Shown here piece by piece: positions 23,670 through 25,873 of a stretch of DNA of 42,131 bases (positions within the stretch are counted from its first letter, which is position 1; each line of letters starts with the position of its first letter). This DNA is from Actinomycetota bacterium (lineage in GTDB: Bacteria > Actinomycetota > Acidimicrobiia > Acidimicrobiales > JAJPHD01), in assembly GCA_021325455.1 (NCBI GenBank), contig JAJPHD010000019.1, positions 1 through 42,131 on the forward strand. The letters are read 5' to 3'. The notes below the pieces were generated by a model. It saw only the letters and a list, made by a program, of their open reading frames with translations, was not told the origin of the DNA and did no database searches. Both the position numbers and the translations under genes were made by a program.

Positions 23670-24891
23670 TCAGGGTGCAGGTCCACCTTCGCCGCCGCTC
23701 CGTCGGCTCGGGTGGCGGGGATCGGAGGGAGGGACGAAGGGCCGCTTGCCCCTCCCCTCCACCAGGGCCCAGCCCTTTGTGGTCTTGAGGCCATGGTGAT
23801 GGGCACAGAGAAGATCCAAGAGGTCGTACATGGTGTAGTGGCACTTGGCCCATTCCAAGCGGTGGTCGACCTCAAGTTGCCCTTGGGCCGGGCAACCCGC
23901 GGCGGCACAGAAGGGGTACAGCCACTCGAGAGCGCTCTGCTGGGAGGCGCTGGGCCGCCGGCCCAGGTGAGCTACCCCGGTGAGGGCCTTGGCCCTGGTC
24001 AATATGGCGGCCACGAAGGGGCTCCCCAGGGCCAAGAGGTCACGCACCGCCGACATGGCGATGGGTCCATATCCCACCAGCTCACACGTCTCTCCGTCTC
24101 GGGCGCTCCCCTGAGGAAGGCGTCGAGGTCCACTCTGAGGAGCAGCTTCACCGGGGACCCCCTCTGGGCCTTCTGCCCATGAGGGCCCGGTCCGGTCGAG
24201 GACCGGGCCAGGTCCACCAGGGCGTCAAAGCTATGAGCAGACAGTGGCTCTTGTGTTCCCTGGGCTCTGCCTTCTCGGTGGCGGCGGTCAGCGAGGGGAG
24301 CCAGAGCCGCCATCGCCTGGGCCCCGTCCTCGGGGTTCCCCTCCGCTCTCAGGTGCCAGACACCCTCGGTGTCGGTCCGGTGCCGGAGGGAGCGCCTGGC
24401 CTGAATGGCCCGCCGGCGGGCCTCCAGATCCCGGTGGGAGGCGGCCTTCGCCTCCCGGCAGGCCTCGGCCAGGCAGGCCAAGGAGGCCGACCGGGCCAGG
24501 TCCAGCAGGCGGCCCCCGGATGAAGGGTCGGACCCGGTGGCCTCGGAGACCATCTGGGTCTGGGCCGGGGAGAGCCGGCCAGAGCTGGCCGCCTCTCTCA
24601 CCTCGGGCTGGGAGCAAAGGCGCCTGCCGGTCTCGAGCGTCGACCGGGCCGCCTGGGTGAACATGCCGACCCTGCGGGCCAGTGCCTCGGCGGCCGAGCG
24701 GTGCCCCTCCTCCCGCCACGCCCCTCGGCGGAGCGGGCCGCAGCCAGTGCCTTGATGGTGGCGGCGGTGGCCTCGATGGCAGCCGCCTGCTCCACCACCG
24801 AAGAAGCGTCAGCCAGGCTCACCAGCGCCGGGTCGAAGCGCTCTGCCCAGTGGGCCAAGGCCTTCCTAAGCACCGACAGGCGCTCGCACAT
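23670..24891 (-). pseudogene. DUF222 / HNH-endonuclease gene (13E12-like) broken by two frameshifts
   Basis: Three reading frames in succession spell one DUF222-HNH protein. Frame one (from ATG 24891) gives LAHWAERFDPALVSLADASSVVEQ. A one-base loss in the C run at 24721-24724 moves the match to a second frame, WREEGHRSAAEALARRVG and on through GRLSPAQTQMVSEA and VDLDAF. Near 24085-24093 another one-base loss moves it to a third frame, CELVGYGPIAMSAVRDLLALGSPFV and the HNH core EVDHRLEWAKCHYTMYDLLDLLCAHHHGLKTTKGW. The Asn of the usual NLxxLC is not kept. Both slips go the same way, so no restored frame exists. Either a decaying gene or local sequence errors. A LexA box lies upstream. Confidence 0.85.
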
Positions 24892-24961
24892 GGACGGTCC
24901 CGCCTTCGGGTGGTCCTCCGGATGGGCCGGCCCCAGCCGGCGATGCGTTCCTCCCAGGTGA

Positions 24962-24977
24962 GGGAACGTATGTTCCC
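24962..24977 (-). promoter_or_regulatory. LexA (SOS) box upstream of the DUF222-HNH gene
   Basis: GGGAACGTATGTTCCC has perfect 6-bp arms around a 4-base centre and contains GAAC-N4-GTTC, the LexA box core of Gram-positive and actinobacterial type. It ends about 70 bases before the ATG at 24891, a promoter-proximal position. SOS boxes ahead of 13E12 (DUF222-HNH) genes are known from mycobacteria. Confidence 0.8.
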
Positions 24978-25020
24978 CATCCTACGGGCGGCCTGTGACC
25001 ATGAGAGGACACCGGACAAA

Positions 25021-25082
25021 GGGGACTCAGTGAGAGGGGGCCCCGGCCGACGGGGACCCAGTGAGAGGGGGCCCCGGGCGAG
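25021..25082. repeat. 31-bp direct repeat, two adjacent copies
   Basis: Units at 25021-25051 and 25052-25082 differ at only a few positions; the shared core is CAGTGAGAGGGGGCCCCGG. Just after it CCGGCCCAGAGGG also appears twice. Non-coding, function unknown. Confidence 0.8.
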
Positions 25083-25210
25083 GCGGTCCCGGCCCAGAGG
25101 GCCCCGGCCCAGAGGGCGCCCTCAGGAGGGGGGTGGCCCCGGGACACGGCGGCTGGCCCGGTCCCGACCCGCTCCCGGAGCCAAGGGGCACGCCGGCCAT
25201 GCAGGGCCGG

Positions 25211-25873
25211 CTAACCCCACCCGGGCTTCCTGCTGCCCAGACGGGCCCTCGCCGCCAGCTCTATCAGGTCCGTGCAGGTTTCGAGCTCCAAGACGGTGGA
25301 GTCGAGGATCAGGTGGTACAGCCGGGGGTCGTCCTGGCGGGCTCCGTAAAGGGACTTCACGTAGGCGTCCCGGGCGCGGTCGGTCTGGGCCTGGCGCTCG
25401 CGGGCGGTGGCCTCGTCTATGCCCTCCAGGGCCATGACCCGGGCGATGCGCCCGGCCACCGGACCGTCCAGCCGCACGCTCAGCACGTCGGGCCGGCCGC
25501 GCAGGACCAGCATCCCAGCCCGCCCCAGGACCACGCCACCAGTCGTATCAGCCACCCGGCGCAGCACCGCCTCGGTCTGCTCCTTGTAGGTCTCGGCCGA
25601 GTACCCAACGTCGTGGACCACCGGGTCCGGCCCCAGGGGAACGGCCAGGCGGGCCATCGTCGTGAGGAAGCGCTCCATGCCGGTCTCGGCCTTCTCGTCG
25701 TGAGCCAGCACCGTCTCCAGAGAGACGGCCATGCGTTGGGCCACCTCGACGGGGATGGCCCGGTCGAAGAACGGCAACCCCAGCCGCTCGGCCAGCATCC
25801 GGCCCACCGGCCCCCCGCCGGCGCCGTAGGAGGCGGAGAGGGTGACCACCCCGCGCACAGCCCGGTCGCTCAT
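25211..25873 (-). CDS. cytidylate-kinase-like protein (PF13189 type)
   Basis: The 220-residue product begins with a P-loop-like segment, VVTLSASYGAGGGPVGRMLAERLGLPFFDR (loop about residues 14-24), followed by GVVLGRAGMLVLRG and the LID-like arginine region TARERQAQTDRARDAYVKSLYG. This is the cytidylate kinase-like family, related to nucleotide kinases but of undefined substrate. It is not the housekeeping Cmk. The ATG at 25873 is 50 bases after the merR stop, so it may be the third gene of the MFS-merR unit. A longer frame upstream crosses merR and is not conserved. Confidence 0.85.
   Translation of the reverse strand: MSDRAVRGVVTLSASYGAGGGPVGRMLAERLGLPFFDRAIPVEVAQRMAVSLETVLAHDEKAETGMERFLTTMARLAVPLGPDPVVHDVGYSAETYKEQTEAVLRRVADTTGGVVLGRAGMLVLRGRPDVLSVRLDGPVAGRIARVMALEGIDEATARERQAQTDRARDAYVKSLYGARQDDPRLYHLILDSTVLELETCTDLIELAARARLGSRKPGWG

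Follow-up and report, generated by a model that had tools for sequence, protein, structure and literature searches.

The DUF222-HNH proteins form a common multicopy family of actinobacteria, and to our knowledge no function has been established for them. In the SOS response, DNA damage leads to activation of RecA, self-cleavage of LexA, and expression of the genes that LexA controls; members of the actinobacterial LexA/SOS regulon in other species include lexA, ruvC, imuB, dnaE2, and Rv2578c-like genes. The closest described counterparts of the gene reported here are the 13E12 genes of Mycobacterium tuberculosis, which have been placed in the LexA regulon in the relevant passages of two reports (PMC5005354 and PMC4181829). 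In the corresponding passage of a third, five putative HNH endonucleases of the same species were RecA dependent after exposure to mitomycin C (PMC8151990). A role in mismatch repair (PMC4181829) and a mobile-element character (PMC5005354) have been suggested for the M. tuberculosis members.

As far as the published descriptions of the M. tuberculosis REP13E12 genes (such as Rv0515, Rv1702c, Rv3074, and Rv3776) go, they resemble the present gene in being of the DUF222-HNH type, multicopy, and preceded by a LexA box. Unlike the M. tuberculosis genes, the copy in the window (the whole stretch of DNA that was analyzed, 42,131 nucleotides) falls below the DUF222 cutoff, has the asparagine of the H-N-H motif replaced, and contains two frame steps. 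LexA control of 13E12 genes is of an already known kind; what is added here is the apparent breadth of that link and a broken member of a divergent branch. Taken as a whole, the locus is probably a recently broken DUF222-HNH (13E12) member with its LexA switch intact, belonging to a group of SOS-timed accessory genes for predicted nucleases.

The split gene and its relatives

One divergent DUF222-HNH (13E12-like) protein was found spread over three frames of the minus strand, from 24891 to 23670. The features of the locus, in the direction of the gene, are as follows.

24979 to 24984, minus strand: possible -10 element, TAGGAT, immediately before the box (weak, identified by eye)
24962 to 24977, minus strand: LexA (SOS) box GGGAACGTATGTTCCC, reading GGGAACATACGTTCCC on the gene strand, with the core 12-mer at 24964 to 24975
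24719 to 24891, minus strand: N-terminal piece, frame 1, starting at the ATG at 24891
24718 to 24724, minus strand: first frame step, within a four-base run or at its end
24092 to 24718, minus strand: middle piece, frame 2, with most of the DUF222-like region
24092 to 24095, minus strand: second frame step, in the same direction as the first, outside any long run
23670 to 24092, minus strand: C-terminal piece, frame 3, with the HNH-like region (DH...HH and Cys pairs), through the stop codon

Each of the three pieces (24891 to 24719, 24718 to 24092, and 24092 to 23670) was open, with coding-like G+C content by codon position and no in-frame stop, and the joined pieces aligned unbroken with intact single-frame homologues of 396 to 473 amino acids. 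The preliminary description was right that the protein runs through all three frames; its interval of 24085 to 24977 was too short, as the HNH part extends to 23670. In the present sequence, the frame 1 open reading frame (ORF) reaches a stop at 24598 after 97 amino acids, and mechanical ORF calling yields three overlapping ORFs with start codons, of 97, 221, and 135 amino acids.

Frame switches were called at 24720 and 24092 by a homology-free codon-usage HMM, which was trained on the same DNA that it scanned. Coding margins were 28.0 nats after and 19.3 nats before the first switch and 18.7 nats after and 29.0 nats before the second. The HMM and the alignment agree with the earlier claim of two same-direction frameshifts. 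The first step had been assigned to the C run at 24721 to 24724, and it does lie at that run, at about 24718 to 24721; the second, described as near 24085 to 24093, exists but is placed at 24092 to 24095, at the upper edge of that interval.

Three intact, single-frame relatives, each from a different genome (L004, L005, and L006), were 45 to 47% identical to the read-through when aligned with it (47 to 48% in the initial search). Two others, both passing the Pfam PF02720 (DUF222) cutoff, matched it at 39% identity, over 16 to 395 (L007; E = 2.2e-66) and 18 to 388 (L008; E = 3.4e-60), and the 13E12 kinship claimed earlier is borne out through them. The window protein aligns almost full-length with members that pass PF02720 and itself remains below: the best of its pieces, the C-terminal one, scored 11.3 bits against a cutoff of 24.4 bits, and a PF02720 search of the whole genome that contains it gave no matches. 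L004, L005, and L006 were also below this cutoff. The score is lowered because the protein is split over three frames and is divergent. As all window pieces fall short of the Pfam cutoff, the DUF222 name depends on homology through intermediates, and the window copy is regarded as a divergent branch.

The C-terminal region has paired Cys residues and the DH and HH expected in an HNH fold, with the middle N replaced by L; the closest relatives also lack the N of H-N-H. The window pieces obtained no score with Pfam HNH, and none of the three matched NCBIfam. The PADLOC defense models matched no family among five proteins (two window pieces, L004, L005, and L051, the second DUF222-HNH copy of the genome). 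A profile search of solved structures returned one chance-level match, and a protein search of the contig collection returned 40 pattern matches, with no confirmed relatives among them.

The LexA box and its counterparts in the genome

Within the window, GGGAACGTATGTTCCC was the only GAACN4GTTC site. It had been called a perfect LexA palindrome; a LexA-type box is indeed present at 24962 to 24977, but its symmetry is near perfect, with matches at all six outer pairs and at one of the two inner pairs. The spacing of about 70 bases between box and gene was accurate, with exactly 70 bases separating the box from the ATG at 24891. A stricter TCGAAC...GTTCGA pattern did not match the box even when two mismatches were allowed. 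With the possible -10 element immediately before the box, bound LexA would cover the start of transcription.

The genome (2.95 Mb; G+C content of 0.72) contained 18 GAACN4GTTC sites, compared with 11 for the backwards pattern. Three of them precede lexA, one being GGGAACGTCTGTTCCC, and one each precedes ruvC, a Y-family polymerase gene that is ImuB-like by our reading of its sequence, a DnaE2-like polymerase gene, and an Rv2578c-like radical SAM gene. The names lexA and ruvC passed NCBIfam cutoffs; the ImuB-like, DnaE2-like, and Rv2578c-like genes matched below cutoff, and the DnaE2-like gene is cut off by the end of the examined stretch. Further sites possibly precede pcrA/uvrD-like and dnaB genes, two precede the DUF222-HNH genes, and seven have no gene assigned to them. 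The box core is thus common to lexA, ruvC, and the ImuB-like, DnaE2-like, and Rv2578c-like genes, a set like that of the actinobacterial LexA/SOS regulon. An absence of the box from other SOS genes had been put forward as an outcome that would speak against SOS control; the same box was instead found at lexA, ruvC, and the ImuB-like and DnaE2-like genes. At the window gene, the box lies close to the start and has the same core as that before lexA, as would be expected of a LexA regulon member.

The family is multicopy and dispersed in this genome, with two copies on different contigs, each preceded by one box. The search for an intact DUF222-HNH copy that the preliminary description proposed was successful: the copy on contig C19 is open over 487 amino acids and has the core GGGAACACCAGTTCCC 97 nt ahead of its start. 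Contig C19 is small and has a second GAACN4GTTC site at its edge, at position 62.

Box frequency in the order and across the phylum

Relatives of the DUF222-HNH gene were sought in 59 genomes of the order, the window's own included and the others all from other families than its own. They were found in 34 genomes, with up to 12 matches per genome, some of which were pieces of one gene. After removal of short fragments (C-terminal or at contig ends) and of additional pieces of a gene already counted, 105 gene places remained; 18 of these were ineligible (match beginning past residue 100 or less than 150 nt of upstream sequence), and 87 were tested. An exact box within -200 to +40 of the predicted start was present at 32 of the 87 genes, against an expectation of 0.28 calculated from the density of sites in each respective genome. 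The backwards pattern gave none, and the remaining 240 kb of the same stretches contained five boxes. Boxed genes were present in 16 of 30 genomes; the other 14 had no boxed gene.

The exact box was absent from the remaining 55 eligible genes, several of which have a one-mismatch box, some by chance. It was absent from all three closest relatives by score, of which L005 has a one-mismatch box, L006 has none, and L004 has only 40 nt upstream. Upstream of lexA in nine other genomes, the exact core was present in eight and absent from one (G055). In G035, LexA was not found by family search, and the box was absent from its three genes.

Across the phylum, DUF222 matches were found in 56 of 149 genomes, with as many as 18 in a single genome; Corynebacterium glutamicum was the single control genome with a match. 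Together with the high G+C content and the gene families, this match points to Actinomycetota as the phylum. One locus, the best place, was taken from each of 30 of these 56 genomes, a sample that leans to strong DUF222 scores, and an exact box lay within -260 to +20 of the model start at 16 of these 30 loci (a wider rule raises this to 19 of 30). Elsewhere in 96.7 kb of the sample there was one box, and the control pattern gave none. Because the box stands at the start of many members (32 of 87 in the order and 16 of 30 in the phylum sample), the family is tied to the DNA damage response. These wider counts suggest that the LexA link holds across the phylum. We lean toward the broader reading that DUF222-HNH genes are an ancient, recurrent, phylum-wide LexA target in Actinomycetota rather than a peculiarity of a mycobacterial repeat. 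The family would then be built for the SOS response, with box and gene remaining linked while copies dispersed and decayed, and with the box in the window outlasting its gene. No publication stating a phylum-wide link between DUF222-HNH genes and LexA was found in a literature search whose coverage excluded most subscription journals.

Two other broken family members that keep the box were observed: L065 (G025:C301), with two matched pieces in different frames, and L016 (G028:C17), with an internal stop. In G014, all 10 tested DUF222-like genes (L025, L086, L090, L095, L096, L098, L105, L109, L114, and L120) have a one-mismatch box, nine of them with GTACG for GTTCG in the second half-site. 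The exact 16-mer TCGAACNNNNGTACGA occurs only 10 times in G014, where the box has perhaps merged with a -10 element.

Origin of the frame steps and proposed role of the gene

When 442,131 bases of the same genome were scanned with the codon HMM, the first rule let eight switches through. The switch at window 23734 marks where the split gene normally ends, and that at window 15956 resembles an ordinary boundary between genes. Only four of the eight had margins exceeding 15 nats both before and after the switch, and two of the four are in this gene; the other two well-supported candidates are in other genes, at L131:8376 (C17) and L136:4118 (C14). Outside this gene, the background in the ~441 kb examined is two frame steps with comparable support, and by rough arithmetic at this rate, two such steps in a 1.2-kb gene would be expected in far fewer than 1 in 1,000 genes.

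Because so few other frame steps were found in the genome, true loss is favored over a generally poor assembly, and the frame steps are read as a recent, real loss rather than an assembly error, a reading that is favored and not proven. The alternatives posed at the outset, a gene being lost or an assembly wrong at two spots, both survive, and a local assembly fault at the split gene is possible. An organism with an intact gene, from which the assembly dropped a base at two spots, is the less likely case and one to be taken seriously. The two steps share a direction, one of them is at a four-base run, and the three pieces keep their coding-like composition and freedom from stops, all of which would fit such a fault. 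The conserved columns are likewise not eroded. Of 72 columns that do not vary among five relatives, the read-through retains 65, on a par with intact homologues examined likewise (65/70, 65/84, 65/82, 67/93, and 70/93), and an old pseudogene would look worse. A uniform error rate, however, would not be expected to give two steps in one 1.2-kb gene, and the second site is outside a long run. Because the conserved residues are not eroded, the loss, if real, would be very recent.

Other readings of the locus are far less probable. Programmed frameshifting at both sites could yield the full protein, as in some insertion sequences, and the shared direction of the steps and the short run at the first would suit it, but RNA structure at the two sites was ordinary (z-scores of +0.65 and +0.79), the second site has no run to slip on, and close homologues are single frame. 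It was rejected as very improbable on account of the missing RNA structure signal and the missing run. Three separate, overlapping genes, which the start codons of the 97-, 221-, and 135-amino-acid ORFs might suggest, are the least credible reading of all and were rejected because the pieces match single proteins end to end. There is also a slight chance that the box is a fortuitous palindrome or belongs to a different regulator, as its outermost bases, GG..CC, are unlike the more common TCGAAC..GTTCGA. Against this, the GGGAAC..GTTCCC form recurs at one of the genome's own three lexA boxes and at the box of the C19 paralogue, and exact boxes are enriched about a hundredfold at family members (32 versus 0.28).

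In the favored reading, that of a recently broken member with an intact switch, LexA would have sat on the transcript start of the intact gene and kept it off. Upon DNA damage, active RecA would prompt LexA to cleave itself, and the predicted HNH nuclease would be made as part of the SOS response. The products of intact members are most likely HNH nucleases. Their presence is patchy and their copies are many, so a dispersed accessory nuclease, possibly selfish, that times its activity to DNA damage fits better than a fixed repair enzyme and is the most likely role. If induced, the window copy would produce only a fragment of ~97 residues from a switch that is still intact; it would in itself be an ordinary decaying member. 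The link to DNA damage makes the function of the family testable in ordinary actinobacteria.

Upstream of the box, four G+C-rich direct repeats with ~31-bp spacing lie at 25004 to 25132, between the box and a neighboring gene (25211 to 25873) that is cytidylate-kinase-like by a reading of its sequence. This kinase-like neighbor is rare, occurring in 4 of the 59 genomes of the order at an E value of 1e-20, the window's own included.
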